Below are positions 8,494 to 33,297 of a stretch of DNA of 64,000 nt, piece by piece. The stretch covers positions 102,001 through 166,000 of the forward strand of contig NZ_CP047135.1 of the NCBI RefSeq assembly GCF_009832905.1, in the 5' to 3' direction. This DNA comes from Stenotrophomonas sp. 364 (lineage in GTDB: Bacteria > Pseudomonadota > Gammaproteobacteria > Xanthomonadales > Xanthomonadaceae). Within the stretch, counting starts at the first letter, position 1. Each line of letters begins with the position of its first letter. The notes beneath the pieces were generated by a model that saw only the letters and a program-made list of their open reading frames with translations, did not search any database and was not told where the DNA came from. A program made the position numbers and the translations under genes.

Positions 8494-8584
8494 TTTGGGT
8501 GGTGCAGGGGGGGCGTGGCGCACCGTTGTTTGCGTGACGCCCGTTGATTGCGTGGCCCCTCCCTTGTCCGTGTCGTCCCCCGGG

Positions 8585-15083: not shown

Positions 15084-15139
15084 GTGTGATGTGTAATTTC
15101 CATTAATCACAAAAACTCAACCTCAAGGAATTGGTTGCT

Positions 15140-16441: not shown

Positions 16442-16444
16442 TCG

Positions 16445-17465: not shown

Positions 17466-18239
17466 CTACCACTCGCACTGCGACCGATGCCATTCCAGCA
17501 GGTCCGCGCCGACTGCGTGCCGCCTTTCGGCCGGCTCCGCCAATCTCAAGCCATCTAGGTTTCCGTACTCGGTCGCAAGTAGGGAGGGCGCGGCCTGCAA
17601 AAGCCTCGATTTCGGCTCCACGCTGATGAGGTATAGATCGAAGAGAGTATGAACATCCGCCCGTAGTAGAAGGCCGTTTGAAAGGACGTTGGTAGCTGCG
17701 CCTCGATACGGATGGACGTGAGCCGCCTCAAGCACATCCACAACGCTCGACCGGGTCATAGCGCACCGGCCGCTGTACGCCTGGAGTAGGGCGCTCCGGA
17801 ACGCGCCCTGGCCCTGGCGTCGAACAATGGTGGCAATAACCTTCTGCCTCTGGTCCTCGGCATCATATGTGGAGAATGCGAGCGACTCTTCAGCAATCCT
17901 TCTCTCTAATTGAAGTTGATTTCGAGTCGTCCCTGACGTTGCCGTGTATGAAGAAGGAGCTGGTGCCCCCGATAGGAGCTTCAGCAACCGACCAGTGACC
18001 TCGGGGCCAACATTCGCTGCCGGCCGCAGTCCGGCGAGCCAGGGCTGTTGGAGTTGATCGAGTACATGGGAAATGTTCTGCATCCGGTACTCCCAGGCTT
18101 TTGGGGTACGGCCGTGCAGTTCTGCAAGCTCTCGATAGATCAGGGCCTTATTGAAAGACCGACCATTTGCGGAGCGCAACTGCATCAGTCGGTAGGCATC
18201 AACCGCAGCCGCCAGCTGATCTTGAGTCCATTCGTCCAC
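17466..18239 (-). CDS. HNH endonuclease, restriction-like
   Basis: This 257-residue protein has a helical N-terminal domain (WTQDQLAAAVDAYRLMQ ... AWEYRMQNISHVL) common in type IV-like HNH nucleases. The C-terminal HNH_2-type fold has C159 (SGRCAMT), H174 and H176 (EAAHVHPY), N188 (NVLSNGLLL) and H197 (DVHTLFDLY). It probably cuts foreign or modified DNA. It is convergent with the PARIS-like pair, with 136 bases between the stops. Composition is intermediate between the AT-rich pair and the chromosome, consistent with an accessory gene that arrived separately. Confidence 0.85.
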   Translation of the reverse strand: MDEWTQDQLAAAVDAYRLMQLRSANGRSFNKALIYRELAELHGRTPKAWEYRMQNISHVLDQLQQPWLAGLRPAANVGPEVTGRLLKLLSGAPAPSSYTATSGTTRNQLQLERRIAEESLAFSTYDAEDQRQKVIATIVRRQGQGAFRSALLQAYSGRCAMTRSSVVDVLEAAHVHPYRGAATNVLSNGLLLRADVHTLFDLYLISVEPKSRLLQAAPSLLATEYGNLDGLRLAEPAERRHAVGADLLEWHRSQCEW

Positions 18240-18326: not shown

Positions 18327-18542
18327 TCAGCTGCTGAGAACTAGCCTATGCGGGGGCCAAAAAGTGTCCACTCGACAAAGCTCATAGTCCTCCCCAAACG
18401 CCAACGCAGCCTCCCTGGCCGGCAAGTCCGAGTAGCACTCCAACAGGTACTGATCCATGCCCGCATCCGCATGGTCGATAGCGAAGAAGCCCAACATGGC
18501 TTCGTCGAACGCCTCAAGCCAATCCCCGTCAATCCTGGTCAT
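18327..18542 (-). CDS. Small acidic protein, 71 residues
   Basis: I do not recognise this protein. It is acidic, with regularly placed aromatic residues (DWLEAFDEAMLGFFAIDHADAG; YLLECYSDLPAREAALAFGEDYELC) and no signal or membrane segment. The ATG at 18542 is preceded by a strong GGGAGG eight bases upstream, which decides it over the longer frame from 18707. It lies between the HNH nuclease and the SymE-like toxin region. It could be an inhibitor or immunity-type protein; that is a guess from its size and charge. Confidence 0.6.
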   Translation of the reverse strand: MTRIDGDWLEAFDEAMLGFFAIDHADAGMDQYLLECYSDLPAREAALAFGEDYELCRVDTFWPPHRLVLSS

Positions 18543-18724
18543 CTGTGGTCCTCCCGATAGGCCAGAGAGGATGCCGCCACCCCGTCCCAAGGCCTGCGAC
18601 TGAACCGGGCCGATTGCGTCGCACCGTAGACGCCGCCAACCAACCCCCACCAGATCAACAGGAACAAGCGATTTCCCATCCTCAGCACCAACGCGCATGG
18701 TGTTCATCGGAGCGTAGAAACTCT

Positions 18725-18877
18725 TCTAGTAGCAGAATGTTGGACGTCTATTTGTCGGGAGGGTGGCTAATACAACACCCTCGTGGAAATACGCCCGCCG
18801 GTTGCTACTAGACGGTTTCTAACCTCCCGACACCCTTGCCATCCCGGCAAGGGCAAGCCCTGCAGGAGGTCCAACAT
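18725..18877 (+). ncRNA. C4-like antisense/leader RNA controlling the SymE-like gene
   Basis: Three pairs of exactly complementary segments are interleaved in the leader of the SymE-like gene. TCTAGTAGCA (18725-18734) pairs with TGCTACTAGA (18803-18812). ATGTTGGAC (18737-18745) pairs with GTCCAACAT (18869-18877), which includes the first two bases of the start codon. GTCGGGAGG (18754-18762) pairs with CCTCCCGAC (18823-18831). Local hairpins GGGTG/CACCC (18761-18780) and CCCTTGCC/GGCAAGGG (18833-18853) add structure. The pattern of an upstream target, a processed antisense segment and a repeated target at the ribosome-binding site recalls the C4 RNA of phages P1 and P22. The family assignment is from memory. 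Confidence 0.6.
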
Positions 18878-19175
18878 GTTGACGCCGTGGGAAGACGAAC
18901 CCGATGACGCGCGCCCCAAGCGCAAACCCTACGCCCGCCCCGCACGCAGCTACCGCGTAGGCGCGCTGACGTACCCGGACCGCGAAGAGTGCGGTCCCAC
19001 CGAAATTGTTCCCTACCTCAAGCTGCGCGGCCGCTGGCTGGACAAGCTCGGCTTCGACGTAGGCGCCCGCCTGAAGGTGGAGGCCACGCACGGCATCATC
19101 ACCCTTACGGTGGTGGAGCGGCCCGTGCCGGTGGTCAAGAAGATCCCCCGCAAGTTGCAGCGCCGCACCGGCTGA
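18876..19175 (+). CDS. SymE-like type I toxin
   Basis: This 99-residue basic protein has the SymE core YLKLRGRWLDKLGFDVGARLKVEATHGIITLTVVE, an AbrB/SpoVT-like fold turned into a toxin. In E. coli, SymE is an SOS-induced RNA-associated toxin or nucleoid-condensing protein held down by the antisense RNA SymR. The ATG at 18876 follows AGGAGG; longer in-frame starts run into the leader RNA. The start region is complementary to a segment 130 bases upstream, consistent with RNA-level control. A CCCACCCG/CGGGTGGG hairpin follows the stop. Confidence 0.8.
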   Translation: MLTPWEDEPDDARPKRKPYARPARSYRVGALTYPDREECGPTEIVPYLKLRGRWLDKLGFDVGARLKVEATHGIITLTVVERPVPVVKKIPRKLQRRTG

Positions 19176-19376
19176 GCGCCCGCGCCCACCCGCCGGGTGG
19201 GCCGTTGCACGGCCAGTGTCCGCCAGCCCCTGCGGGCGGCCTGGCCGCACAGCCGCAGTGCATGCCCCGTTTCGGCAGCGCTGTGCTGTGGCAGGCGCAA
19301 ACGCCAGCACGTCACTGCACGCCCGGTGCAGTGTGGATGTACAACCAGTTTCATAACCCAGCAGTGGGAGGAACGC

Positions 19377-19709
19377 ATGAGCAAGAGTGTCTTCATGCAG
19401 TTGGAAATGGCCGCTGGCCTGCGCGCCAGCTTTCAGCACGCGGCGGCGCGCGAACACCGTCCCGCCGCACAGGTGCTCCAGCGGTTGATGCGGGAGTATG
19501 TGGTGCGGCAATCGTGTGTGGATGCCGAGCAAGAGGCGGGCCCCTTCGACGCGGTCGAGCGGGTGGCAGGCGCGGTGGCCCTGGAGGGGGCGAGGGTGGC
19601 CAGGTGTGAGCCGGAGGCGGCGCCGTGCTTCGAAGGCGGCGACCGGGATCTGGAGGCAATGGTGGCCCGGCAGCTTGGGTGGCGGTGTTCGCCGTTTGGG
19701 GTGGGGTGA
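19377..19709 (+). CDS. Ribbon-helix-helix antitoxin-like protein
   Basis: This 110-residue protein has an N-terminus, MSKSVFMQLEMAAGLRASFQ then HRPAAQVLQRLMREYV, that fits a ParD/RelB-type ribbon-helix-helix antitoxin. The longer C-terminus (VERVAGAVALEGARV ... LEAMVARQLGWRC) is not typical. The ATG at 19377 follows GGGAGG. No toxin of the RelE/ParE type is adjacent, so it is either an orphan or a regulator in its own right. It follows the SymE-like gene by 201 bases on the same strand. Confidence 0.6.
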   Translation: MSKSVFMQLEMAAGLRASFQHAAAREHRPAAQVLQRLMREYVVRQSCVDAEQEAGPFDAVERVAGAVALEGARVARCEPEAAPCFEGGDRDLEAMVARQLGWRCSPFGVG

Positions 19710-20227
19710 GCGGGCTTGCTATGGGGAAGAGCTAGGCTTTCATCAAAGGTGAGCGCTAATGATGGAAGCTCAGCTCCGCCCCTTCAGTGGGATCAACGTC
19801 GGAAACCAATGCTCGTTAAGGCATTCATCGCGTAAGGGGGGAATGCGCCCGCCGGGCGCATACTCGGTTTCTAGCCTCCCGGCACCCTTTCGCCTGCCTA
19901 GGCGAAAGCCACTGCCGTCTGGGGCGGACACCATGCGCAACGTCACCACTCGCCAAACCACTTGCAGCCGAGCATCCGCCAATGTCTCGCATTGTTGCAG
20001 CGCGACACCCACTGGAGACCAAGCCATGACCCCGCCCGCCGGGCGCCTCGCCTTGTCAGAAGTGGTCGATCCCTTCCGCCGCGCCCGGAACTGTGCCGGC
20101 CCATCTGGCGCGCCTCGTTCGATGTCTGTTGCCTGGCGTGGGGCCTGATCCCAGTAAAGGTGTGGGGAGCGGCTAGTCAAGCTGACACGGCAGGAGGGCG
20201 CGGGTTGAGGAAAGGACAGCCCACCGG
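19710..20227. other. Region with a partial second copy of the C4-like element
   Basis: No convincing gene is present. At 19843-19861 a perfect ATGCGCCCG/CGGGCGCAT hairpin is followed by CGGTTTCTAGCCTCCC (from 19865). That segment differs from the first copy (18813 onward) at two of the first 24 bases, and a TCGCCT/AGGCGA hairpin follows it. The 5' partner arms of the first copy are missing. A 72-codon frame opens at 19933 but lacks recognisable features. The segment looks like a decayed phage- or island-derived duplicate. Confidence 0.5.
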
Positions 20228-21790
20228 TCAACAGGCGGCGGGCTGCGCCGGTTGCAGCCACCGCCGCAGCATGTCATCCAACGCCGCTGCAGGTTGATCA
20301 AGCGCCAACACGTGCACGCCGGTGCGGTTCTCCGCATGAAAGGCAGGTACCTCCAGCCAGGGCGCGTCACCCCCCGCAGGCACCAGAAGCAGGGAGCAGT
20401 CCGGGCGCTGGCCGTCCCATCGCAGCGCATCCTGGTAGAGGTGCGCCGAGCGCATGGCCTGCAGGATGTTGTGCCGGCCAGTGCGGTACTTCGCATCCAG
20501 CACCAGCATCCGCCGGGCGCCCGCGATCTCCGTGGTCACCAGGATGTCTGGCTTCAACTGCAGCGAGATACTCCGCAGCCCCTTGGATGCACCCTCGGCA
20601 GTCACGAGCGTTCGCTGCAGCGAGGCTTCCACGCGTGTATGCCCGGCGGCTCCCACGTAGCGAATCACGTCCACCGAAGTTTGCGTCCCGCGTGCCCATG
20701 CCAGGCCCGGGAACAGCGTGCGCAGGCTGTCCAGAATGCGCACGTAGCACCAGCGTTCGTAGATCTCCCAGGTGGGGCTGAGCCACAGTTGCTCGTCGCG
20801 ATCCGGCCCGGCCACGCCCGGCCGCAGCGTTGCCCACCCCAGGCGATACGCGCGCGCGTACTCCGGATGCGCGGAGATCGCGGTCAACCCTGCCGCACCC
20901 ACCTCGCGGCGGCTCACGTTTGCGTAGGGGGATAGCTTTGCCAGTGACTGCAGGCGGCTTGCCTGTGCCTCCAGATACTCAAGCTTGCGGCCAATGCGGC
21001 AGGCCAGCGGCGTGCGTGCGCCTTCTTCTTTGTCCACGGCGGCCAACTTCGCCAGGCCGCTGGCCACGTGTGCGCAGCGTAACCGTACCTGTGACAGCGT
21101 TGCCGCCAATGCGCGGTTGGCTGGGTTATCCAGGTTCTCAGCCGATTGAACGACCTCCAACAAGGGCGTACTGCCTGCGGCGGAAGGCTGCCTGCGCAGC
21201 AGCCCCGCCGTTTCGGCCCGTGCCATCAGCCGCCGGGCCGAGGTAGCGTCAATTCGCCTCACCCGCTGGAAGGGAACCTGCCTGCGCTCGTGTTGCAGCC
21301 GGGTCAGGGGGCGCGCGGCCACCTGCTGCAGCGCTTTGATGAGCCCTTCCGAGTGTCGGCGCAGCCGGGCGTACTGAAGAAACAACGTGGTCACATCGCC
21401 GACAACGCCGATGTTGCCCTGCGCGGCTTCCGAACCCAACAGCAGGGCGGGGTCGAACGCCTGGATCTGCGCCATCATCTGCTGGTAGAGCGCAGCGCCC
21501 ATCTTGCGCGCATCCGGTGCCACATCCAGACGATAGCTCGCCAACGGCCGGCCGAGGCTGTCCACCACCTCGGCCGATACCTCACCGGCATAGAAGCCCG
21601 CCTGCCAGCGCAGTACAGGCCCCGCCGCGGTGGATACCGGCTCCACCGCGGCTTCGTCGATGTACAACGTGGCGCCGTCCGGCAGCACCTGGAACTCGTA
21701 GACGCCCGTTTCTCGGAAGCCACTGCAGCAATCGCCCGGGGACACCTCAAAGCGGGTACGCGCCTGGTCATGGCAGATAAGAACGATCAT
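20228..21790 (-). CDS. McrC-like DUF2357 restriction nuclease
   Basis: This 520-residue protein has an N-terminal beta-rich domain and a long helical middle. Its C-terminal PD-(D/E)xK nuclease core has KPDILV (D415), LVLDAKYR (D432, K434) and a following ALRWDGQRPDCSLLLVPA strand. The layout is that of DUF2357/McrC-type partners of McrB GTPases, which cut modified DNA. It starts four bases after the McrB-like stop, so the two are one transcription unit. No strong ribosome-binding site is visible, in line with translational coupling. Confidence 0.85.
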   Translation of the reverse strand: MIVLICHDQARTRFEVSPGDCCSGFRETGVYEFQVLPDGATLYIDEAAVEPVSTAAGPVLRWQAGFYAGEVSAEVVDSLGRPLASYRLDVAPDARKMGAALYQQMMAQIQAFDPALLLGSEAAQGNIGVVGDVTTLFLQYARLRRHSEGLIKALQQVAARPLTRLQHERRQVPFQRVRRIDATSARRLMARAETAGLLRRQPSAAGSTPLLEVVQSAENLDNPANRALAATLSQVRLRCAHVASGLAKLAAVDKEEGARTPLACRIGRKLEYLEAQASRLQSLAKLSPYANVSRREVGAAGLTAISAHPEYARAYRLGWATLRPGVAGPDRDEQLWLSPTWEIYERWCYVRILDSLRTLFPGLAWARGTQTSVDVIRYVGAAGHTRVEASLQRTLVTAEGASKGLRSISLQLKPDILVTTEIAGARRMLVLDAKYRTGRHNILQAMRSAHLYQDALRWDGQRPDCSLLLVPAGGDAPWLEVPAFHAENRTGVHVLALDQPAAALDDMLRRWLQPAQPAAC

Positions 21791-21794
21791 CGGC

Positions 21795-24068
21795 TCAGCG
21801 CCAGAACCGCGCGCTACCCTGCTCGTGCAGGTCCACGGTGAGCTCCTTCACCTTGGTGGCCGATGTGTCCAACTGGTGCGCGGCAAGAACGGTGCTTACC
21901 GCCGCGAATGCCTCACGCAGCCGCCGGGTGTCCTCGCCGCGCAGTTTGGGCAGCACCTTGGCATACACAGAGAGATCCAACGCTTGGCGGGCGGTGAGCT
22001 CGCCACCGTCCACACCGGCCTCCACATAGCCCAGTACATCCCCGATGGTGCGCCAGCCAAAGTGCAGCCGCACCGCGCGCAGGGGGGCCATCAGTTCGGC
22101 CAGCACTGTCTTTACCAAGGTCAGGTCATCCGGTGCCAACGTGGTGGTGGTCCAACCCGGATACTGTTCCACTTGGATGTCCCAGAACTCGATGACCGTG
22201 CTGCGGTCGAGCACTTTGTCGCTCAGGCCGTGGGTGGTCTCATCCATGTTCACGGTGCCGATGATGACCAGGTTGGCGGGGTAGGGCAGGCGGCCGGGTA
22301 CATCGCCCACCTCATCGCCCAATGCGTGGAGCTCGATGTCATCGCCGGTTTCCATCGCCGACAGCAGCGGCGCCAGATACTGCTCGGGGTGCGACAGGTT
22401 CATCTCATCCAGCAGCACAACGTAGGGCCGGTCGGGATCGGCGCTGGCGCGCAGCAGGAACTCCAGAAAGCCAGTGCGCATGTACACATCGGTGTCGATG
22501 GGGTTCACATAGCCCAGCAGGCTGCTCGGGTCATGCCAGCCCGGTTGAACCGCCACTACATGCCAGCCCTTCTGGTCGCCAGGTTCCTCATCGGCATGAG
22601 CCCACAGCGCCTTGGCGTACCCCATGGCCAACAGGGTCTTGCCGGCACCGCTCAGGCCAGTGAGCACGGCAAAATGACGGCGCGGGTGGCGCCGGTTCCA
22701 CACGCCGGTGTGCAGCTGGGTAATCAGGCTCGGATCAAATGCCAGGTCCTTGCCAAATGAGGCTTTGATGGCCTGCACCGACGGAAGCTGCGACCACAGG
22801 TCATCCACCTCGGTCACTACCGAGGTGCTGGCAGTGTCTGCCGCTTCCTTGGCCCGTGCGGGTAGCTCGCCGGGCTTCCAATGGATACGTGAGGCCCACT
22901 CCCGGCCCCGCGGCGTAAGGTGCAGCACTTTGGCTGCATCCAACTCTGCCAGCTCCATGCCTTTGATCCAGTTGATCAGCACGGTAGGGGCGAAATTGCT
23001 GGTCCAGCCCGGGTTGACCCGCTGCAGCCGGCTGATGGCCTGTTTCTGCGGCAACGGCGCTTGGTCGAGCGCGTGCAGCAGGTTGTCAAAACCGAGAATC
23101 TGGGTAAGCAGCCAGTCCGATACGTCTTCAGCCTCACCAGATTCCAGCAATGCCTCGCCCCGGGGGGTGAGATACAGGTCGTCGCCCGTAGAGCGAAGCG
23201 CGCCCCACTCGGCGATGAGCGCGTTGAGGTTGGTGCCCAAGGAGTTGGTTGCCAGCTTTGGGTTAACCGAGCGGATGTGCTCCAGGAAGTCGGCGCGCTT
23301 GCAGCCATCTTTTGCGAAAGCCAGCATGGCCACCACGCTGGGCACCGAGCCGTTGATGGCCAGCATGCCGCGCCGCCGGCGCTCGGCTGGAAGAGGGTTG
23401 AGCTTCAGCTCGCTGGGTGATTCGCCGGGCACCTCGGTGGCGGCGTCGCTTTTCTCTTGCACAAAATGCACGAATAGCGCCCACGCCAGGGTCATGCGCT
23501 CTTCGCGGCTGGTGATCGCCACGCCCGCTTCATCAAAGCGCTGCAACACGCGCTGGTGAAGCTCGGTGCGGTGATCCAGACCCGTGCTCAGCCCCATCGC
23601 CTTGCCCAGCGCCCGCAGCTTCTGGTAATGGGCCACCGTGGTGAAGTGCGCCGGCCACAGGGAGGCGAACACGCGATACATCTTCAGCCGGGGGCGTTTG
23701 GGGACCAGTGCAAGCACGCTGTCGTCAAGGCGCTCCCATGCGGCGCCAAACCAGGCGATGCGCTCATCCTCGCTGGCGGGGAGCTCGGCCTGCTTGAGGT
23801 CCCAGAGCATCTCGGCAATGGCGTTGCTGGCGATCACGGCCGATACGTCGATGTGGCCCTGGCCGGTGGCCGCGATCGTGCGCTCTTCCCACAGCTCCCG
23901 CTGAAACGCTGCGCTTACGAACGTATCGTGGTCGGCGGCCTCAACCCGCGCCAGCCACGTGGAGAGCCGCAAGATCCAGCCATCCAGGTGATGCCACTTG
24001 CGGTGCTGCTCAAGCGCGGCATGGCAGGCATCGGCCAGCCCGGTATTGCTCATAAGATCGATGGTCAC
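21795..24068 (-). CDS. McrB-like AAA+ ATPase/GTPase
   Basis: This 757-residue protein has a C-terminal AAA_5 motor with Walker A GLSGAGKT (471-478), Walker B VVLLDEMNLS (550-559) and the McrB-class sensor VNMDETTHGLSDKVLDR (606-622). The first 450 residues are helical and carry two winged-helix-like repeats ending in LYLTPRGEALLES and LHLTPRGREWASR, likely used for target recognition. The GTG at 24068 has AAGGGA upstream; the ATG at 24053 is the alternative. With the DUF2357 nuclease it forms a type IV-like modification-dependent restriction pair. Confidence 0.85.
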   Translation of the reverse strand: MTIDLMSNTGLADACHAALEQHRKWHHLDGWILRLSTWLARVEAADHDTFVSAAFQRELWEERTIAATGQGHIDVSAVIASNAIAEMLWDLKQAELPASEDERIAWFGAAWERLDDSVLALVPKRPRLKMYRVFASLWPAHFTTVAHYQKLRALGKAMGLSTGLDHRTELHQRVLQRFDEAGVAITSREERMTLAWALFVHFVQEKSDAATEVPGESPSELKLNPLPAERRRRGMLAINGSVPSVVAMLAFAKDGCKRADFLEHIRSVNPKLATNSLGTNLNALIAEWGALRSTGDDLYLTPRGEALLESGEAEDVSDWLLTQILGFDNLLHALDQAPLPQKQAISRLQRVNPGWTSNFAPTVLINWIKGMELAELDAAKVLHLTPRGREWASRIHWKPGELPARAKEAADTASTSVVTEVDDLWSQLPSVQAIKASFGKDLAFDPSLITQLHTGVWNRRHPRRHFAVLTGLSGAGKTLLAMGYAKALWAHADEEPGDQKGWHVVAVQPGWHDPSSLLGYVNPIDTDVYMRTGFLEFLLRASADPDRPYVVLLDEMNLSHPEQYLAPLLSAMETGDDIELHALGDEVGDVPGRLPYPANLVIIGTVNMDETTHGLSDKVLDRSTVIEFWDIQVEQYPGWTTTTLAPDDLTLVKTVLAELMAPLRAVRLHFGWRTIGDVLGYVEAGVDGGELTARQALDLSVYAKVLPKLRGEDTRRLREAFAAVSTVLAAHQLDTSATKVKELTVDLHEQGSARFWR

Positions 24069-24371
24069 TACGAAATCCCTTTGTTGATGTCGCGATCACT
24101 GGCCAAAGCCGATGCGTAACAGGATAGAGGCGCTTCAGGGGCGTATCCACCGTTTGATGCGCGGGCAATAGTGCACTGAATACTGCTGCGGATACGCCAT
24201 CAACATGGCGGCCAGCACCCCATACCACCATCGTAGCGAGTGGTCATCCGCTACCGTGGGGTGCCACCTTACTCGCCCATTGCGCCGCGCCTCGATCATC
24301 TGAACGGCTGACTGTAGAGTGTTGTACCCACTTGGCTCACAGCAAGCACTGCTGCGCAGCTGCCACCTCCG
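24069..24371. promoter_or_regulatory. Gap upstream of the McrB-like gene with an inverted repeat
   Basis: No gene is seen in these 303 bases. GCACCCCA (24215-24222) and TGGGGTGC (24257-24264) form an eight-base inverted repeat around CGTAGCG and CGCTACC segments that could extend the fold. The length of the gap suggests a separate promoter for the McrB/McrC pair, or a terminator for the genes upstream. Confidence 0.45.
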
Positions 24372-24791
24372 TCAGCAGCCGCAGAGGGTCTTAAGCAGAT
24401 CATGGGAAACCAACAGCGCGAGCAGGAGATCGGCAATCTGTTGGCTGAAATAGCCCGCCAGCACTACCGACAGCGCCTTGAGCATCAAATCCATCGGCAT
24501 GGTCAGCCGCCTGCAATACTCAAACTCATGGCAGATGATTCGATGCAGGCGGACGCCATACCGTGCTTCGGCGGCCAGTACGCCCTTCACGCCTGCTACC
24601 ACCCGCGCTCTGAACTCACGGTAGTCGCCCCACTCCATGGCGTGAACTGGCAGGGTGCCGTCGATCACGTTCCGCCAGGTTTCCTTCTTGCTTGACAGCT
24701 CATAACGAACGCGATCGAGGCCCTCCCACTCTCTCAAGAGACTGAGTGAAAGTTCAAACTCATTCTTCCCCATGTTCTCTTCGATGCTCAT
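24372..24791 (-). CDS. Small protein with hydrophobic C-terminal tail, 139 residues
   Basis: I do not recognise this protein. The N-terminal 90 residues are charged and helical (FELSLSLLREWEGLDRVRYELSSKKETWRNVIDG; YREFRARVVAGVKGVLAAEARYGVRLHRIICHEFEYCRRL). The last 40 residues are hydrophobic (LMLKALSVVLAGYFSQQIADLLLALLVSHDLL), possibly a membrane anchor or amphipathic helix. The ATG at 24791 follows AAGGA. It starts 29 bases after the WYL gene, so the two are probably co-transcribed. Confidence 0.65.
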   Translation of the reverse strand: MSIEENMGKNEFELSLSLLREWEGLDRVRYELSSKKETWRNVIDGTLPVHAMEWGDYREFRARVVAGVKGVLAAEARYGVRLHRIICHEFEYCRRLTMPMDLMLKALSVVLAGYFSQQIADLLLALLVSHDLLKTLCGC

Positions 24792-24820
24792 CGCAATCCT
24801 TGTTTAGTTGAACGAACGTG

Positions 24821-25855
24821 CTACGTCGCTACGCTTTCCGCCATCTGCGCGCCCAGAGGGCAGCCATACCCGGCCACTGCCGCGCGCAGGTCCGCAGCAA
24901 TTTCCTCACGCAGGTGCGCCGGTGCTTCCACCTGTACATGGCGACCAAACCCCATCAGCCACCAGCGCAGCGATTGATCATCTTCTACCGTGGCGTGCAG
25001 CCTTATCTGGTCATCGCCCAGGGGCTGGATTACCTGATCGGCTGACAGCGGCGTGTCGCGCAGATGCTCGGCCGCAGCCGTATGGAAGCGCACCACCAGT
25101 GCGATCTGCCCCCGGCCCTGGAACGCGGTGGCCACCGTGGATGCGTACTGCTGAAACTCGAAGCCCTCCGGCGCGTTGGCTGGCTCGTCCAGCACCTGCG
25201 TGCGCGAGAGGCGGTGCAGCGCCAGGTGCCGCACATCGGGGTAGTGGCGCAACGTGCAGACCAGGTACTGCGCGGGGCCTCGCACGATCAGCCCGAGTGG
25301 GTGCATCACCATTTCCTTGGGCTCATCGGTCCCCTTGCTGCGGTACCAGCCGGTGAGGCGTCGCTGCAGCAGGAGCGCCCGGTGCACATCCACCTGCACG
25401 GCCATGGCCACCTCCGGCGCCTTGAGCGCCATGCCCGTCGGCAGAATGGCGGTGCGCCGATGCCATTCGCTCCAGCCGGTGGCGGCAACTTCGCCCCGCG
25501 CCATGTCGAACACGGGCATCAGTTCATTCATGGCAGTGGCAGGCAGCAGGCTGCGAAGGTGCGCTTGTGAGAGCAGCAGCGCCACGCTCTGCGAGGTAGA
25601 CAGGCGGGGCGTGAAGGCAAAATTGGCGTCCTTGCTCCAGCTCCAGCCAAAGGGCTTGTCGCTCTCATCCACGACCAGCTGGAACCGCGAGGACAGATTC
25701 TGCAGGTCCCGCTCGATGGTGCGGCTGGTGGTGGTGAAGCCCAACTCAATGAGCGCCTGACGAATCTGTTTGGCGGTGATGCGGCGCGGAGCGCGTGGGA
25801 TCAGGCGCAGCATCTCCCATTGGCGCATGAGGGTGTCACTGGAACGGTCTTTCAT
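24821..25855 (-). CDS. WYL-domain transcriptional regulator
   Basis: This 344-residue protein has an N-terminal winged helix (RQWEMLRLIPRAPRRITAKQIRQALIELGFTTTSRTIERDLQNLSSRF), a WYL sensor domain (HRALLLQRRLTGWYRSKGTDEPKEMVMHPLGLIVRGPAQYLVCTL) and a C-terminal WCX-like domain (HTAAAEHLRDTPLSADQ ... WWLMGFGRHVQVEAP). WYL proteins bind nucleic-acid-type ligands and commonly regulate phage-defence operons. The ATG at 25855 is chosen over the in-frame start at 25966, which would add a low-complexity tail. It sits inside the leftward defence array and probably controls it. Confidence 0.88.
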   Translation of the reverse strand: MKDRSSDTLMRQWEMLRLIPRAPRRITAKQIRQALIELGFTTTSRTIERDLQNLSSRFQLVVDESDKPFGWSWSKDANFAFTPRLSTSQSVALLLSQAHLRSLLPATAMNELMPVFDMARGEVAATGWSEWHRRTAILPTGMALKAPEVAMAVQVDVHRALLLQRRLTGWYRSKGTDEPKEMVMHPLGLIVRGPAQYLVCTLRHYPDVRHLALHRLSRTQVLDEPANAPEGFEFQQYASTVATAFQGRGQIALVVRFHTAAAEHLRDTPLSADQVIQPLGDDQIRLHATVEDDQSLRWWLMGFGRHVQVEAPAHLREEIAADLRAAVAGYGCPLGAQMAESVAT

Positions 25856-25927
25856 CCGTGCAGCCTTTGGCACTGCTGTCGCCTTGGGGGGCGCTGCAGT
25901 GCAGAGAGTGGGAACAGGGGAAGCGGG

Positions 25928-25957
25928 CCGGCTACCCGACCGCTGTCGGGTAGCCGG
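25928..25957 (-). promoter_or_regulatory. Perfect 13-base hairpin between the 341-residue protein gene and the WYL gene
   Basis: CCGGCTACCCGAC and GTCGGGTAGCCGG are exact complements around a CGCT loop. No T-run follows on the coding strand, so it is not a classical terminator. It may be an operator for the adjacent WYL regulator or an mRNA-processing signal that uncouples expression of the two parts of the array. Confidence 0.6.
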
Positions 25958-25966
25958 AATGCACAC

Positions 25967-26992
25967 TCAGGCAGCCGCCGGCGCAGCTTGCTCCTGCAGC
26001 TGGGCCAGCACGCCATCCACGTCGCGCACGGTCTTCTCGGTGGAGAGCACTAGTGCGCCATCCTTGTCCAGGATCGGCGTATCCACCATGAGCTTGATCA
26101 ACTGTGCGATCTTGACCGCCCGGAAGATCTTCTCGCGCGTCTCCAGCGGGTAGGTGCTGAAGTCCTGGCCATGCGCCGCGATGGCGGCGCGGATGTCCGC
26201 AACGCCACGGCGCAGGGGCATGCCGAGCTTGGAGAAGGTCTTGTTGGCCAGTGTGGTGATCACCTGCACGGCGGCCAGGCGCTCGGCGGCCAGTACGGCC
26301 TCATCGTAGTGCGTGCGCGCCACTTCTTTGTTGCGCTTGGCGGTGGACAGCGCGGCGTCGGCCTTGGCGCCGACCACCAGGCCGAAGATCGCCAACGCCG
26401 GGCCGGCTACCAGTCCGCCCAGCACCATGGTGCCGCCGGCCATGCCAAAGCCACCGGCAGACAGCGCGCCACCACCCAACCATGCCAGGGTGGCATTGGT
26501 GGCCGCCGCACCGCTCAGCGTGGAGATGGCGGTGCCGGTGCTGGCGCTGGCCAGCAGGAAGGTGCCGTTGTACGCGCCAAACGCCAGCGCTGCGCCGCTG
26601 CCGAGGCCTGCGCCAACGCCCAGGCCGGAATCCATCAACAGCTGGTAGTCGCGGCGCAGCCCATCGAGGGAGACGACGGAGAAATCACCGTCAACCAACT
26701 TCTCCAGCTCCGGTGAGCTCACGCTGTCCACGTTCTTCAACTTGCCGAAGGCCTCGACGAAGTCTTTGATGGCACCGTTGAACGAGCGCAATTTGCGCGC
26801 GCCGTAGTCCTCCAGCACGGCGTTGGTTTTCTTACGCTGGTCATCCAACAGCTTGGTGCCACGGCTGATCAGCTGGTTGGCATCTGCGTTGGCGACGTTG
26901 GCGTCCTTGTGGTCAGACACCGCCTTGCCACCTTTGTACAGGCCGTAAATCGCACTGGCGGCCATGGCCGCGCCGACAAACACTGGAATCAT
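25967..26992 (-). CDS. Glycine-rich membrane protein of the TerB-associated module
   Basis: This 341-residue protein has an N-terminal hydrophobic segment (MIPVFVGAAMAASAIYGLY), a helical region, and a long glycine/alanine-rich hydrophobic middle of about 90 residues (GLGVGAGLGSGAALAFGAYNG ... LGGLVAGPALAIFGLVVGAKADAAL). A coiled-coil-prone stretch rich in A, E and K and a helical C-terminus follow. Glycine-zipper segments of this kind insert into or remodel membranes. The ATG at 26992 has GGAG upstream. It follows the TerB-like gene by 12 bases. I know no named function; it resembles the 516-residue protein of the same array in overall design. Confidence 0.7.
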   Translation of the reverse strand: MIPVFVGAAMAASAIYGLYKGGKAVSDHKDANVANADANQLISRGTKLLDDQRKKTNAVLEDYGARKLRSFNGAIKDFVEAFGKLKNVDSVSSPELEKLVDGDFSVVSLDGLRRDYQLLMDSGLGVGAGLGSGAALAFGAYNGTFLLASASTGTAISTLSGAAATNATLAWLGGGALSAGGFGMAGGTMVLGGLVAGPALAIFGLVVGAKADAALSTAKRNKEVARTHYDEAVLAAERLAAVQVITTLANKTFSKLGMPLRRGVADIRAAIAAHGQDFSTYPLETREKIFRAVKIAQLIKLMVDTPILDKDGALVLSTEKTVRDVDGVLAQLQEQAAPAAA

Positions 26993-27004
26993 GTTCTGCT
27001 CCGT

Positions 27005-27559
27005 TTACTCAAGGATGATGGCGATGGTGCGGCTGGCTTCGGCATTGATGCTCATGGCGCGCTCCAGCAGGTCGGCATAGGTGTAAGGGTCCACGCCGAA
27101 TCTATCGGCCAGCCAGCGCAGCTGGGCTTCCTCCACGCTGGAGACTTCGCCGTCGGCCAAGGCCAGCAGCATCAACTCATACAGCATCACTTTCGGTGAG
27201 GAGGGCTGCATGGACTCGGTGAGTGTGTCGTCCACCAGGGTGCCAAGCAGGTCGCAGGCCACGCGAGCGCGCTCGTCCGGATCGGCCTGGCGCAGCAGGG
27301 GCAACTGCTTGAGGCGCGCGAGCAGGTCTTTGGTTACGCCATCGGCGCGGTATACCTTCCCGCACTCGCGTGCGAAGTTGTCGAAGATGGCGCGCTCGTG
27401 CTCGGATTCGGCCAGGCTCACATTGCTCAGGTCGGTATCACCGGTGAGCTCGTCGTGGGCTTTGCCATCCCACAGCAGGGTGTTGTCGCTAACGCTCATG
27501 AGGCGAGCAACCTTGAGGAAGGTCGCCTGCTCGGCGTCGGGCAGCAAGTACAGGAACAT
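27005..27559 (-). CDS. TerB-like protein
   Basis: This 184-residue protein fits the TerB/tellurite-resistance superfamily of helical, acidic proteins: FLYLLPDAEQATFLKVARLMSVSDN at the start, VMLYELMLLALADGEVSSVEEAQLRWLADRFGVDP near the end. The 'LALADGEVSSVEEAQL' block corresponds to the D/E-rich metal-binding helix-turn-helix of TerB. TerB-family proteins act at the inner membrane in stress and phage-response systems. The ATG at 27559 is preceded by GGAGAG. It is flanked by two glycine-rich membrane proteins, implying a shared membrane complex (inference). Confidence 0.75.
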   Translation of the reverse strand: MFLYLLPDAEQATFLKVARLMSVSDNTLLWDGKAHDELTGDTDLSNVSLAESEHERAIFDNFARECGKVYRADGVTKDLLARLKQLPLLRQADPDERARVACDLLGTLVDDTLTESMQPSSPKVMLYELMLLALADGEVSSVEEAQLRWLADRFGVDPYTYADLLERAMSINAEASRTIAIILE

Positions 27560-27650
27560 CGTCTCTCCGGAGGGTCAAGATGAGGCGCTGAATCAGCAAC
27601 GGCGGCCAGCGCGCGCAGGGATTGGCCGCCTGAATAAAGCTCTGGTACGG

Positions 27651-29201
27651 CTAGAGCCGAAGCGGTTGATCGCTGGCCATGAACATCTCGAACTCGCCCA
27701 TGCAGCCAAATTCCAGCGTGGCACCGAGCAGCGTGGCGTAGCTGTTGATCGCCGTGGCGAAGGCATCCACCTCCAGTGCAGCCGCGCTGGCATCCAGTGC
27801 AAGGAGCAGGTCGGTTGTGGCTGCGCGCATAGCAGGCAGTTCGGCCACCATGAACATCGCCAGTGCCTCACGCTGCCGCTGGATTTCTTCACGGGCGGCT
27901 TGATGCAGCTCGATGGCCTGGTCCAGTGCTTCCTTGGCCAGGGCGGCGTTCTTGCCGGCCAGCATCGCTTCGCGATAGAACATCGAGGACAACGTGCAGC
28001 CGATCATGCCGCCGATGGCAGCGCCCAGCACGGGAATGGGAATGGCCACTTGGCCCAGTGCGGCCATCATGCCCGACGCCAGCATGCCAGCGCCTTTCTC
28101 GCCGATCTCCTCCATGAACTGCAGGCCGTCTATCTCGCTGTTGGCGTAGCGCTTGATGCTCACCCCCATCGTGATGCACACGTTGACCACCATCGCCGGG
28201 GCAGCGGTGCGCGATAGCGTCTGCAGGCCCTGGCTGCTGGATTGCTGCATCACCGAGGTGAGCGTGGCGCCCGCTGCTGTGGAGGCATAGCCCAGCCCAG
28301 CGGCCTTGGCGGTGCCGATGGCCACCGCACCTACGGCTGCCTTCATCTGCTGGCGCTCGGTGGCCACCAGGAAGGCATTGGTGGCCAGGCTGATGGCGGC
28401 ACCGACCATGGCGCCGCCTTTGGCGCCCTCCATGCCGGCACGGTGGGTGGTATGGGCGATGTCACGCAGCGTGGCGATACGGGGGTGGGTGCGATAGAAG
28501 AGCGCATCCTCGCTGGTCAGGCCGGCATCCTTTAGGTTACCGGCCAGTTGATCGTAGTTGTCGGCATGCTCGCGCAGGCGAGCGGCCACCTCCGGCTTGC
28601 CCAGTGCATCCACCGCATCGGCGTTGGCGCGCAGCTTGGCCGCTTCCGAGCGGCAGGTGGCCTCTGCGCCGGCCATCTGCTCGGAGGGCAGCTCCAGCTT
28701 GATGCCACGGTAGCGGGCAAACTCGCCATCGGGCTTGGCAATCTTGTTCAGCAGCGCGTCGCAGTTCTTGGCAGCGACAAACTTCATCTGCCCCTCGCTG
28801 CCCATGACCACTTGACCATCAAGCACCTGTAGCCGGTCAACGACGGGGTGGTTGCGCTTGTACTCGGGGTGATCATCGCTACGCACGGTGCGTACCGGCG
28901 AGCCGTTGATGATCGCCTCGGCATTATCGCGGCTGGTGGCGGCCACTTCAGCGGCATAGCCGGCCTGGCTGGCCAGCACCTTGGCGGCATGATCGGCCGG
29001 CACGCTGTAACCGGCGATGGTCTTCAGGCCCAGGGCAAACGTCTCGCCGGTGACGGCATCACGGCCGGTGTAGCCTTTGATGTACTCGGCACCGGCAGCG
29101 CCATAGCGCTGAACCACTTCGAGGGTAGATGCCGCCACGGCGGCGTCTACTGCTTCCCTGGTAACAGGCGCTGCGGCCTGATCCTTTGCATTTTGTTCCA
29201 T
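27651..29201 (-). CDS. Large glycine-rich membrane-associated protein of the TerB module
   Basis: This 516-residue protein has a soluble helical N-terminal half that includes AAEVAATSRDNAEAIINGSPVRTVRSDDHPEYKRNHP. From about residue 260 onwards the sequence is hydrophobic and glycine/alanine-rich (GGAMVGAAISLATNAFLVA, VGAVAIGTAKAAGLGYASTAAGATL, GMLASGMMAALGQVAIPIPVLGAAIGGMIGCTLSSMFY). A coiled-coil and helical tail follow. The ATG at 29201 has GGAGG nine bases upstream; the GTG-type extension from 29258 is unlikely. It is the first gene of the leftward array. The layout suggests a pore or membrane-bending component, but I do not know a characterised homologue. Confidence 0.7.
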   Translation of the reverse strand: MEQNAKDQAAAPVTREAVDAAVAASTLEVVQRYGAAGAEYIKGYTGRDAVTGETFALGLKTIAGYSVPADHAAKVLASQAGYAAEVAATSRDNAEAIINGSPVRTVRSDDHPEYKRNHPVVDRLQVLDGQVVMGSEGQMKFVAAKNCDALLNKIAKPDGEFARYRGIKLELPSEQMAGAEATCRSEAAKLRANADAVDALGKPEVAARLREHADNYDQLAGNLKDAGLTSEDALFYRTHPRIATLRDIAHTTHRAGMEGAKGGAMVGAAISLATNAFLVATERQQMKAAVGAVAIGTAKAAGLGYASTAAGATLTSVMQQSSSQGLQTLSRTAAPAMVVNVCITMGVSIKRYANSEIDGLQFMEEIGEKGAGMLASGMMAALGQVAIPIPVLGAAIGGMIGCTLSSMFYREAMLAGKNAALAKEALDQAIELHQAAREEIQRQREALAMFMVAELPAMRAATTDLLLALDASAAALEVDAFATAINSYATLLGATLEFGCMGEFEMFMASDQPLRL

Positions 29202-29454
29202 GTGCCGTGTCCTCCGTGGAGCGTGGCGTGTAGCGGGAGTTCCATCTTCATCGTGCATAGCGACAGTGGATGTCGCAGCGCGCCGTACGCCCTGACATCG
29301 GCAGGGCGGGCCATATCTTTAGGGTCACTATTGTCGAGGCAATCGATATGGGCGCCATGCGACATGGTTTGTCGGAGCACGCATCAGGATCAACGGCGAA
29401 GGATCAATTCTGGGCACGGACGCTCGACTCTCTCGACACGCTGGAAGGACGATC

Positions 29455-29556
29455 ATGTTCAAAATTATTGGCGCAGTGGTGGTGTACGGATTCGCCGTGT
29501 ATGGACTTGGGCAGTGGATGGCGGACAAGGCGGCCGTTGAGGACGGTCGGCTCTGA
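29455..29556 (+). CDS. Tiny single-span membrane protein, 33 residues
   Basis: MFKIIGAVVVYGFAVYGLGQ is a membrane helix followed by a short charged tail (WMADKAAVEDGRL). AAGGA lies five bases upstream of the ATG. The size and hydrophobicity fit small inner-membrane stress proteins. It reads away from the 516-residue gene, 253 bases from that gene's start. No function is known. Confidence 0.6.
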   Translation: MFKIIGAVVVYGFAVYGLGQWMADKAAVEDGRL

Positions 29557-29620
29557 GTTGGCCTGTGTACTTGTGCAGAAGCGTTATTTGCCCAGCCGGC
29601 CGCAGCCGGCTGGGCCCCCC

Positions 29621-29827
29621 TCACCGCGTATGACACACCGGCGAGCAGGTGGCGCAGCCATCGCTGTTGGCATGGAAGCGCTTGGCTTCCCGCACGGCGG
29701 ACTGGCAGGTGGTGTGCTCGCCCAGTGCCGTCTTGGAAATGACAGCGCTCAACCAGCGGCAATCCTGGCGGTGCACTTCATGTTCGCCCGTGCGCTGGGC
29801 GTGGTTGTTGACATAGCACTGAGCCAT
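29621..29827 (-). CDS. Small cysteine-rich conserved protein, 68 residues
   Basis: The protein has MAQCYVNNHAQRTGEHEVHRQDC, then LGEHTTCQSAVREAK and a C-terminal DGCATCSPVCHT. This layout (YVN-N-AQ...EVH...C, LGE...C..AV..AK, DGC..CS..CH) matches a widespread small-protein family of unknown function found near mobile and accessory genes. The paired Cys and His residues may bind zinc. It is on the minus strand, convergent with the tiny membrane protein. Confidence 0.7.
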   Translation of the reverse strand: MAQCYVNNHAQRTGEHEVHRQDCRWLSAVISKTALGEHTTCQSAVREAKRFHANSDGCATCSPVCHTR

Positions 29828-30201
29828 CTATGGCCTCTTTGCATCCGCGCGATGTTGCGCGCTATCGACTATCCGCATTTGGGCCAGAATGTGTTGCGAC
29901 GCGTGTCAATGCCCGCGCATGGCAGCGAATAGGAATTTGATGAAAAGCAGGGAAGTGGGAGATGTGTCCCGCGAGGATTGCGCACGGAAAGCGAGTCGCC
30001 AGAAAATCGCAACGTCGATTGGCCCACCCCCAAGCGGAATGGCACGTGCAGAGCCGGGAATGCTGGCGCTCAGTGCAGTAGGAAGACTCTCATTTTGTTC
30101 AAATAATGAAGCATGTCTCGTAAATGAGTACACATGGCAAGGAGAAACATGGATGACCGCTGCTAGCCTTTCAGCACATCAATAAAAGCCAAGGATATGG
30201 C
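29828..30201. other. Intergenic region before the PAAR effector
   Basis: No gene is supported in these 374 bases. The sequence becomes AT-rich from about 29930. An AAGGA at 30191-30195 serves the PAAR gene. Several ATG-initiated frames stop within a few codons. Confidence 0.5.
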
Positions 30202-32055
30202 GTGGGACGCACCGTAATAGTTGTGGGCGATCGCACCAGCAGCGGCGGCACCGTACTCACCGGTTCGCCCTTCACCGACATCAACGGCATGGCCATCGCC
30301 CGCATAGGCGACAAAGCCTTCTGCCCCAAACACAACGGCCCATTTCCCATCATCACGGGTGACACCACGTTTCTCGTGGATGGCCAGCCCTTGGCGTGTG
30401 AGGGTGACTACATCGCCTGCGGTTGCCAGTTGGTGGCGGTGAAGCAGAGCACGGTAACTGTGGAGTCGGGCGGTAGTGCGGCGCCCAGTGCCCGCAGTAC
30501 CGCGGGCGCTGCAGCGGTGCCGCCCGCGGGTGGGTTTGTCGCGGCGGGTACCAAGGCCATGCCAGCGCAACGCGCGCCGGTCAAGCAGGACATCCTGCTG
30601 CACTACCACTACGGCGACCTCGACCGCACCCCGGTGCGCGGTGTGGCCTACCAGGTGATGCTGCCCGACGACAGCATCCGCACCGGCCACCTGGACGACG
30701 AGGGCCGCGCGCGTATACCCGAGGTCACCGTGGGCCCGGTACAGATGGTGCAGGTGCTGTTCCAGCCTGACGAGCCCGACGAAGACAACGCCCCCATCCT
30801 GGCCGCACGCGCGCGGCTGAAGGCGGCCCTGGACGCCATCGTAGTGCAGACCCGCACTGACATGGCGCCGGAATGGCAGCAGTGGGACCAGGCCGGCAAC
30901 GCCATACGCTGGGGCCTGCAGCGCGGCAACCAGGCGCTGGGCATGGGGCAGGGCACGTGGGACTACGTGGCCGGCACCGTGGAAACAGCGGTGGACATGG
31001 CCGTGCTCATGTACAAGGCCGACCGCGAGCTCAAAGAGTGGACCCGCCTGCTGCTCACCGGCGACCGCGACGGCCTGGACCGCAAGATCGCCGCCCTGCG
31101 CGCCACCGGCGGCAAGGTCATGGACGCCGCCAGTGAGGCCAAGGAGCTGTTCAATCTGCTGATCGAGGACCCCGGCATCACCGAGATGCTGCCGTCCTTC
31201 GGCGTGGCCTGGTGGGAGGCGGTACCGCCCGACGAGCAGGAACGTATCGAGGCCCGCTTCAGCTCACAGATCATGGTGGACGTGGTGGTGTCCATCCTGC
31301 TGGCCGCCGTCACCGTGGAATTGGGCGGCGCCGGCGGCTTTGGCTATGCTGCGGCCAAGGCGGGCAACACGGCCGCCGGCGTGGGCAAGAAGCTGCTGCA
31401 CCTGATGGAAGAGGTGGAGGACGCGTTCAAGGGCCTGGCCAAGGTGCTGAAGACGCGCAAGCGACGTCAGGCCGATGGCAACCGCACGCCGGATGGTGGC
31501 AGGAAGATCGAGACCAAGCGGTTGCCGAAGCGGATGCCGCGGAAGAAGTTGCCTTGTTTTAGCCCGCAAAAGCTACCTGCCTCGAAGTACCCGGAGATGG
31601 ACCGGCAGTTGAAGGGTCAGGAGCAGGGACTGAACGATATGAGCGTTGAGGAGTACCTTGAAGCCCGGAAGGCATTCGATCCGAAGAACCGAGACCGAAC
31701 CGTCTCGGTGGATGCCCGTGCTGAGTACAGGGCCAGTATCTATGACAAGCAGTACCGGCTGCTACGCAGGCAGCGCGTGTCTCCATCTGAAGCTCGTGAA
31801 GCAGCGGAGAAGCACGCCGATGACACAATGAAGGTGATGAACGCACTGCATAATCCTGATCTGGTTGCAGGTGGCACGGATAGGATTGATGACTTCGGAG
31901 ACGGAGAGGTGAACCAGACAATTGGCCGTCAGTGGAAGCTCAAGAAGAAGGGAGAAACCGCTCGCATTGAAGAGTTGGACGCGGCGGCTGCCAAGCTTCC
32001 TGCAAGCGAGCGCGGAATGACCAAGATGAATGGCGGATTGGAGCGCTGCAGATGA
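30202..32055 (+). CDS. PAAR-domain type VI secretion effector with Ntox15 DNase C-terminus (Tde-like)
   Basis: This 617-residue protein has an N-terminal PAAR domain (1-85; VGDRTSSGGTVLTGSPFT, INGMAIARIGDKAFCPKHN, CGCQLVAVKQ) that caps the type VI spike. An Ala/Pro linker and a middle domain of about 230 residues follow, then a hydrophobic segment (about 355-390, MVDVVVSILLAAVTVELGGAGG) and a C-terminal Ntox15 toxin. The toxin's HxxD motif is H538-A-D-D541, with a downstream VNQTIGRQWK motif. Agrobacterium Tde effectors with this domain degrade DNA in recipient cells. The GTG start has AGGA six bases upstream. No VgrG or sheath genes are in the window. The toxin part is visibly less GC-rich, suggesting a swapped-in domain. 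Confidence 0.88.
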   Translation: MGRTVIVVGDRTSSGGTVLTGSPFTDINGMAIARIGDKAFCPKHNGPFPIITGDTTFLVDGQPLACEGDYIACGCQLVAVKQSTVTVESGGSAAPSARSTAGAAAVPPAGGFVAAGTKAMPAQRAPVKQDILLHYHYGDLDRTPVRGVAYQVMLPDDSIRTGHLDDEGRARIPEVTVGPVQMVQVLFQPDEPDEDNAPILAARARLKAALDAIVVQTRTDMAPEWQQWDQAGNAIRWGLQRGNQALGMGQGTWDYVAGTVETAVDMAVLMYKADRELKEWTRLLLTGDRDGLDRKIAALRATGGKVMDAASEAKELFNLLIEDPGITEMLPSFGVAWWEAVPPDEQERIEARFSSQIMVDVVVSILLAAVTVELGGAGGFGYAAAKAGNTAAGVGKKLLHLMEEVEDAFKGLAKVLKTRKRRQADGNRTPDGGRKIETKRLPKRMPRKKLPCFSPQKLPASKYPEMDRQLKGQEQGLNDMSVEEYLEARKAFDPKNRDRTVSVDARAEYRASIYDKQYRLLRRQRVSPSEAREAAEKHADDTMKVMNALHNPDLVAGGTDRIDDFGDGEVNQTIGRQWKLKKKGETARIEELDAAAAKLPASERGMTKMNGGLERCR

Positions 32056-32729
32056 TTAGCATGCTGGATGACGATTTCGAGTACTTCTATCAACGTGCCG
32101 GCTTCGGTCCGTGCTTGGATGCGGTGAGCCCCAGTCAACATCAGATTGAAAGCTACCGGCGAAAGCTCCCCTCAAAGCTGCTTTCCTACTGGGATACCTA
32201 CGGGTTCGCAGGGTATGGACAAGGACTGTTTTGGATGACTGATCCCGATGAGTACGCGGAAGTACTCAACGCCTGGATCTATGGCACCAGGTTCTACCGG
32301 CAGGACGAGTATTCCGTGGTGGGACGAACGGCGTTCGGAAGGCTGATGGTCTGGGGGAAGCGAACTGGATTCAGCCTTAACATTCATTGCCCACTTGGCA
32401 TGATCTTTCCACACGAAGACTCGATTGAAATGAGTGACGAGGAAGCGGACTTTCAGGTCGAAACCTGGTTGAGTGGTATGCAAAAGAGCATGCTCGATCT
32501 ACCGGACGTAGATGAGCGGCCGCTGTTCGAGCGGTGCTTGAGTCTTCTGGGTCCACTGGGGCGCGAAGAAATGTATGGCTTCGTTCCCGCGTTGGCTATG
32601 GGAGGATCCAAGCGATTGGATCGGTTGCAGAGAGTCAATGCAGTTGAACATTTGATGTTCCTGGCGCAGCTGACTGAGCCAACGGTAATGCTGGATATCA
32701 ACAAGGAGGCGGGGCGCCTTGGGCTTTGA
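32052..32729 (+). CDS. Tdi1-like immunity protein (GAD-like/DUF1851)
   Basis: This 225-residue protein has a GAD-like N-terminus (DDFEYFYQRAGFGPCLDAVSPSQ, YRRKLPSKLLSYWDTYGFAGYGQGLFWMTDPDEYAEVLNAWI) and a DUF1851-type C-terminus (ERCLSLLGPLGREEMYGFVPALAMGGS). These are the domains of Tdi1, the immunity partner of the Tde1 DNase. Its ATG overlaps the effector stop (ATGA), so toxin and antidote are translationally coupled. Composition is as low in GC as the toxin domain. Confidence 0.88.
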   Translation: MISMLDDDFEYFYQRAGFGPCLDAVSPSQHQIESYRRKLPSKLLSYWDTYGFAGYGQGLFWMTDPDEYAEVLNAWIYGTRFYRQDEYSVVGRTAFGRLMVWGKRTGFSLNIHCPLGMIFPHEDSIEMSDEEADFQVETWLSGMQKSMLDLPDVDERPLFERCLSLLGPLGREEMYGFVPALAMGGSKRLDRLQRVNAVEHLMFLAQLTEPTVMLDINKEAGRLGL

Positions 32730-33150: not shown

Positions 33151-33297
33151 TTGCCGCCCCCAAGCACCCACCCCCACACCCTGCTACCATTCCCCGGCAT
33201 TCCAGCCAGCCAGCCCACGCACACATGCGGGACCGGCCGTCACACGTACGGCCCAGCGAGCCAGGACACCCTCCCGTGCCCATTCAAGGACGCTCGC

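Follow-up and report, generated by a model that had tools for sequence, protein, structure and literature searches.

A four-gene cassette with WYL and TerB-like genes and a putative McrBC-like pair stand side by side in Stenotrophomonas sp. 364

We analyzed a stretch of 64,000 nucleotides of Stenotrophomonas sp. 364 (contig NZ_CP047135.1, positions 102,001 to 166,000), hereafter the window. An earlier description, made from the letters alone and called below the sequence-only reading, had pointed to seven consecutive genes on the - strand, from 29201 down to 20228, as what may be one composite phage-defence system. All seven open reading frames (ORFs) were found in the order claimed, and the six gaps between them (91, 12, 111, 29, 303 and 4 bases) were correct. 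The genes and two further features are as follows, in window coordinates.

27651..29201, - strand: g1, M516, 516 aa (535 aa with the upstream ATG)
27005..27559, - strand: g2, TerB-like protein, 184 aa
25967..26992, - strand: g3, M341, 341 aa
25928..25957, no strand: perfect 13-bp inverted repeat with a 4-base loop, between the M341 and WYL genes
24821..25855, - strand: g4, WYL-WCX regulator, 344 aa
24372..24791, - strand: g5, probable orphan ORF, 139 aa
24138..24371, - strand: open frame of 78 codons in the 303-bp gap, apparently the decayed C-terminal end of a WYL gene
21795..24068, - strand: g6, McrB-like AAA+ protein, 757 aa
20228..21790, - strand: g7, McrC-like DUF2357 and PD-(D/E)XK nuclease (predicted), 520 aa

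The ATG start of g4 was chosen for the MKDRSS beginning that it has in common with the S. rhizophila gene; the mechanical ORF opens at GTG 25966. Pfam bore out the description of g4 as a WYL regulator (WYL 2.9e-12, WCX 4.9e-20) and of g7 as a DUF2357 McrC-like nuclease (DUF2357 2.5e-7, PDDEXK_7 2.2e-6, both over cut-off). Two labels stood in part. The TerB-like label of g2 is backed by a Pfam TerB match (3.4e-4), but this lies below the cut-off. The McrB-like label of g6 is backed by the PADLOC profile PDC-M26A (1.5e-36), but the Pfam AAA matches are weak. M341 is glycine-rich as stated (11.1% glycine; 9 GxxxG motifs vs 4.2 in shuffles, a count reached by 1 of 500 shuffles). The same could not be said of M516, with 8.5% glycine and 4 GxxxG motifs vs 3.7 in shuffles, 268 of 500 of which reach 4. 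M341 and M516 match the PADLOC profiles PDC-M09A (8.6e-24) and PDC-M09B (1.1e-11), which, like PDC-M26A, are unnamed candidates.

We are highly confident that the row consists of two adjacent units. Unit A (24821-29201), the four-gene cassette, comprises the WYL regulator, M516, the TerB-like protein and M341. Unit B (20228-24068), g6 with g7, is by its domains a predicted McrBC-like (type IV) restriction pair.

A single search with the M516 alignment in a collection of genomes at species level gave 29 loci, 21 of which have full 10-kb flanks (L and G numbers below are our handles for loci and genomes). When all seven proteins were used as tblastn queries, M341 lay 3' of M516, in the same orientation, in 29/29 loci. 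TerB was found in 22/29 loci by tblastn, and in 26/29 M516-M341 intervals by a family hidden Markov model (HMM) together with Pfam (25 intact, L047 interrupted). There was no gene in the interval in L035, L039 and L049. The cassette ranges over Gamma- and Betaproteobacteria, Enterococcus and Bifidobacterium, and the order M516-TerB-M341 (the trio) is kept from Proteobacteria to Bifidobacterium. M516 and M341 distances are correlated (Mantel r 0.67, reached by 0/2000 permutations; 23 rows), as are, to a lower degree, those of M516 and WYL (r 0.30, reached by 2/2000; 23 rows), and for both pairs shared ancestry alone could suffice.

The link between WYL and the trio, which had been drawn earlier, was upheld. 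Of the 29 loci, 22 have a WYL gene close to the trio, and so do 22/24 Pseudomonadota loci that keep the upstream sequence (L040, one of 25, is cut at its start). Fifteen of the 22 loci matched by the WYL HMM were in its training set and 7 were outside it. With g4 alone, tblastn recovers 16 of the 22, and the remaining six have WCX-family matches at the corresponding contig coordinates (contig numbers not cross-checked). The genomes that carry the trio mostly have 1-3 WCX genes in 2.7-8.6 Mb.

Relatives of g5, g6 or g7 lie beside the trio in 0/29 loci, within the sequence at hand. DUF2357 over the cut-off was found in 0/29 of the whole trio genomes, which hold two sub-threshold matches outside the trio loci. 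In S. rhizophila (L021/L025) the trio and WYL are present (85-90% identity) and g5-g7 are missing. Of the 395 genomes surveyed in the family, four contain a full-length g6 relative, namely the own genome, G387, G270 and G036; nine further ones have partial, weaker matches (E 8e-5 to 1e-39), and a class-level sample gave one partial match. G270 and G036, of two other genera, have g6 and g7 relatives at 58% and 53-54% identity. Neither has the trio in the 19.5-kb stretch, and neither is among the four of the 395 genomes that match M516. As there are trio loci without g6/g7 and g6/g7 loci without the trio, the two units are therefore separable in both directions.

These results bear directly on the seven-gene system, in which McrBC would detect and the trio would back it up. 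The single strand, the short gaps and the order kept in G387 speak for such a system, but G387 is a near relative that shares the entire stretch (a near copy, 96% DNA identity over window 18353-32296, same gene order). The sequence-only reading had itself named the trio found mostly without McrBC, and the reverse, as its refutation, and this is what the neighbourhood search with the M516 family returned: WYL is nearby in 22/29 loci, McrB/DUF2357 in none. The composite does not occur in any of the 29 species loci, one of the seven genes (g5) is an orphan, and what seems to be a decayed piece of WYL lies in the 303-bp gap. We therefore rejected a single seven-gene system, which we regard as highly improbable. 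The earlier suggestion that the 303-base gap could mark McrBC as a separate unit agrees both with the separability and with the WYL piece in the gap.

The frame in this gap matches the WYL C-terminus of g4 (48% over 33 aa) and the WYL protein of S. rhizophila (54% over 26 aa), and its 78 codons exceed the part that matches. By these alignments it appears to be what is left of a second, or an older, WYL gene, and the place looks like a junction, not the interior of an operon. For g5 a single homologue, 96% identical, was retrieved in a search of 5.8 billion sequences; to judge by this, g5 is probably an orphan outside any conserved system.

The WYL gene lies 3' of M341 in the Stenotrophomonas loci and 5' in the other WYL loci; in L050 it is divergent. 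Mean WYL identity is 64% within Stenotrophomonas and 27% vs the rest. Since M516 is 53% identical across the same divide, the WYL regulator of the cassette has probably been exchanged. The WYL PDB chains are matched by g4 at 3.5e-10, in an alignment that covers only residues from 155 or 173 onward. The 13-bp inverted repeat between M341 and g4 occurs once in the window (0 expected), and an inverted-repeat search found no palindrome common to the window and the relatives. It is possibly an operator, a REP-like element or a processing signal.

We then consider the proteins of unit A. The N-terminus of M516 has the pattern E...D-x15-QxK, with Q138-M-K140. In the aligned columns of the best 120 of 373 homologues, E85, Q138 and K140 are kept in 120/120 and D122 in 119/120. 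The D and QMKF are retained in Enterococcus and Bifidobacterium relatives aligned at 25-29% identity, and the QxK position is offset by two columns in 2/26 alignment rows. The D...(D/E/Q)xK residues of PD-(D/E)XK nucleases are thus present, as the QxK variant. Further toward the C-terminus, three stretches are hydrophobic (about 262-280, 328-346 and 378-407). The pattern suggests a possible PD-(D/E)XK-like nuclease domain ahead of a hydrophobic C-terminus; that M516 is a membrane nuclease is a tentative proposal, which we hold a little short of evenly balanced.

AlphaFold2 (AF2) predicted the order a-b-b-b-a-b for the N-terminal domain of M516 with low confidence. The pLDDT was 52 for M516 and 58 for M341, and both models were too poor for use. 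Foldseek with these poor models returned coiled-coil or unrelated rows from the PDB and none at 1e-3 from the viral library. PDB sequence searches with alignments A1 and A4 (M516) and A2 (M341), and with g1, g2 and g7, gave no significant match, and the M516 and M341 profiles have no mutual similarity. The hhalign comparisons with Mrr (15/29 loci) and NERD (9/19 loci; right-strand rows) were uninformative, and the positive control failed too. At one locus (L045, 10001-11510) the M516 match is split in two frames, which may reflect a broken gene or an assembly error.

In M341, long helices flank a Gly-rich hydrophobic centre at about 122-207. Weak matches to the LeoBC dynamin-like profile were seen for the M341 relatives in L063, L064 and L055 (8.9e-7, 2.9e-5 and 9.9e-4), and a GTPase domain was not seen. 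The GTPase domain of the bacterial dynamins (LeoBC) has no Pfam counterpart in g3. Unit A could instead act by damaging the membrane, as an abortive effector: M516 and M341 would form a helical pore or a dynamin-paddle-like insert, TerB would trigger it, WYL would repress it, and the QxK domain would be structural. We consider this explanation unlikely.

For the g2 family an HMM was built and conserved residues were found. In Bifidobacterium, Pfam TerB is matched at 1.7e-8 in L053 (over cut-off) and at 7.8e-5 in L051 (just under); the middle genes there match our own TerB family HMM at 3.8e-6 to 5.7e-4, out of sample. Two TerB genes stand in tandem in S. acidaminiphila (L031, 11518-12771), with M516 on one side and M341 on the other. 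In Pseudomonas putida (L047, 11574-14738) about 2.5 kb of sequence splits the TerB gene and includes two ORFs of 258 and 456 aa on the same strand.

Parallel modules share M341 and WYL. Two congeners, G245 and G836, have WYL, an M341 relative and a protein of 544 or 551 aa in this order (L063, 7962-11863; L064, 7135-11125). The M341 relatives match PDC-M09A (3.2e-20 and 1.4e-17), and the third protein is PDC-M40B. The latter had no Pfam match; its N-terminus bears a DHV...N...SNLQST...INSSKG string, which looks HNH-like, and the C-terminal part appears hydrophobic on visual inspection. We counted these modules, with WYL, an M341 relative and an HNH-like hydrophobic-tailed protein, in support of a nuclease logic in unit A. 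An Azospirillum plasmid carries WYL, M516, M341, a 309-aa protein and a PD-(D/E)XK-annotated gene, and adjoins helicase genes; no TerB was detected there by the family HMM. M341 and WYL appear to be a shared chassis with differing nuclease-like partners, as judged from few examples. A broader version, that of a widespread class of membrane-seated nuclease defences with several genes, in which WYL would control a shared membrane subunit (M341) and exchangeable nuclease proteins with hydrophobic tails (QxK-type in M516, HNH-like in L063 and L064), TerB would be the coupler, and entering phage DNA would be destroyed, we put forward as doubtful.

Presence of the cassette is patchy. Full-length M516 occurs in 3/395 family genomes (the own one, G387 and G379), with one weak match in G122; among congeners the count of presence is 5/91, the own one included. 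The class-level sample of 369 genomes had the trio in the own genome only, and E. coli genomes gave no match with an Enterobacter trio as query. Carriage on mobile elements is rare, with 2/72,556 plasmid records (one partial) and 0/50,697 phage records; a viral-contig collection had one locus, L067, close to one end of its 51-kb contig. The cassette of S. rhizophila and S. maltophilia PC315 adjoins, in opposite orientation, a relative of the beta-propeller gene at window 33151-34443, as at a hotspot or a local rearrangement. In Oceanospirillum (L043, 9163-10032) an Ion_trans gene (2.1e-21) lies directly 5' of M516, and WYL was not found at the locus. Defence matches among neighbouring ORFs, single or paired, were ZacA, ZacB, ZacC, JukA, HEC-05, MzaC and IetA, among the families listed, in a tally of 129/154 ORFs that excluded 24 ORFs of four Gram-positive loci and a further one of 2004 aa, was made without a background set and used an ORF picker sometimes on the wrong strand.

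TerB and WYL are known from stress contexts too, with TerB in tellurite/stress operons. Unit A could accordingly be an envelope- or stress-response module and not anti-phage. The mostly metabolic genes flanking the cassette in the scanned Bifidobacterium and Enterococcus loci, and the rare carriage on mobile elements (plasmid, phage and viral-contig counts) fit this explanation. The patchy presence in the family and among congeners, the PDC-M09 listing and the defence genes in some neighbourhoods count against it, and we find it rather improbable. It is fairly probable, in our estimate, that unit A is a defence system.

As to its place among known systems, g3 and g1 match M09A and M09B and are neighbours with TerB in between; TerB and WYL of the cassette match no M09 profile, the make-up of PDC-M09 being known from profile names alone. 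Outside preprints, we found no literature that names PDC-M09, and abstracts that join TerB, WYL and McrB or phage defence gave none that we recognised as this cassette. The main text of the DefensePredictor paper (PMC13092281) has neither 'TerB' nor 'WYL'. SNIPE is reported as a single protein, composed of an N-terminal transmembrane segment, DUF4041 and a GIY-YIG nuclease, that cuts phage DNA during injection at the inner membrane (PMC13190303). The proposed logic, with a nuclease at the inner membrane that attacks injected phage DNA, is alike, but M516 has no Pfam match to DUF4041 or GIY-YIG, and its hydrophobic part is C-terminal. BrxR and CapW are reported to be WYL transcription factors beside defence operons that repress until a ligand is bound (PMC9122601, PMC9122588). 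Like them, g4 is a WYL factor beside a defence-like operon, but it has a WCX C-terminus and a position that varies with lineage, and the comparison is by description only. Shango and Bunzi have TerB recorded among their components (PMC10952713) and so resemble unit A in having a TerB domain in a defence-type operon, but neither name came up in the PADLOC scan of g1-g3, a library whose content for both is unverified.

In the proposed mechanism, the WYL protein would keep the cassette quiet and, by analogy with BrxR and CapW, would release it on a ligand that arises when the cell is infected or its DNA damaged. The hydrophobic C-terminal half of M516 would anchor it at the inner membrane, and the D...QxK nuclease domain would be N-terminal. 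M341 would insert in or line the membrane as the membrane part of the complex, and TerB would couple M516 and M341 at the cytosolic face. Phage DNA would then be cut while entering at the membrane, or the membrane damaged; as with SNIPE, a nuclease bound to the membrane could act on incoming DNA and leave the chromosome intact. Shown are which genes are present, their order and how far both are conserved, the separability of the two units and the conserved residues. Membrane insertion, nuclease activity, WYL control and the anti-phage role of unit A are what we infer. Our best explanation as a whole, in which unit A would be a nuclease system tethered to the membrane under WYL control and unit B is McrBC-like, is held with evenly balanced confidence.

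In unit B, g6 has Walker A GLSGAGKT at 471 and Walker B VLLDEMN at 551. Its sole NxxD string, NPID at 522, is ahead of Walker B, and NMDETT follows Walker B. Residues 1-440 have no Pfam match, with no modified-base reader domain among the Pfam matches, and E. coli McrB PDB chains are matched only at E 0.18. In g7, DUF2357 is fused to a PD-(D/E)xK nuclease with the catalytic PD...DAK motif at 414-434. In these Walker motifs and this fusion the pair is like McrBC type IV systems including CoCoNuTs (PMC11090510), but in g6 no NxxD was found after Walker B and no known reader domain by Pfam. The TerY-P triad of CoCoNuTs (TerY VWA, phosphatase, kinase) is absent by Pfam from the seven proteins. In G270 (L023, 8763-19256) hsdM, hsdS, hsdR, the McrB-like gene and the DUF2357 nuclease stand directly in a row on one strand. 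ORFs of nearly the same sizes lie at the hsdM-hsdS-hsdR place in G036 (L024), identified by size only.

Other features lie elsewhere in the window. At 15131-17329 (+ strand) an AAA_21 ATPase (PADLOC AriA 4.3e-34) is followed by a DUF4435 protein (5.3e-22); AriB is a DUF4435 protein, and the pair is PARIS-like. An HNH_2 endonuclease at 17466-18239 (- strand) has a partial likeness to phosphorothioate-DNA restriction enzymes, far under the cut-off of that model. A SymE-type toxin family protein (7.1e-11) is encoded at 18783-19175 (+ strand). At 30202-32729 (+ strand) a gene for a PAAR-Ntox15 protein precedes a GAD-like/Tdi1-like immunity gene, and the two make up an effector-immunity pair of type VI secretion. 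Two GGTAGAGCCGACC copies stand face to face at 8584-8596 and 8655-8667 and resemble the GTAG repeats of Stenotrophomonas.

In summary, a seven-gene row that looks like chance contains a four-gene cassette of conserved order. The PDC-M09 candidate gains two likely further parts, TerB and WYL, and E85, D122, Q138 and K140 of M516 are the residues to probe a nuclease mechanism. The McrBC-like pair is joined to a type I restriction-modification operon in one genus and stands beside the cassette in another.

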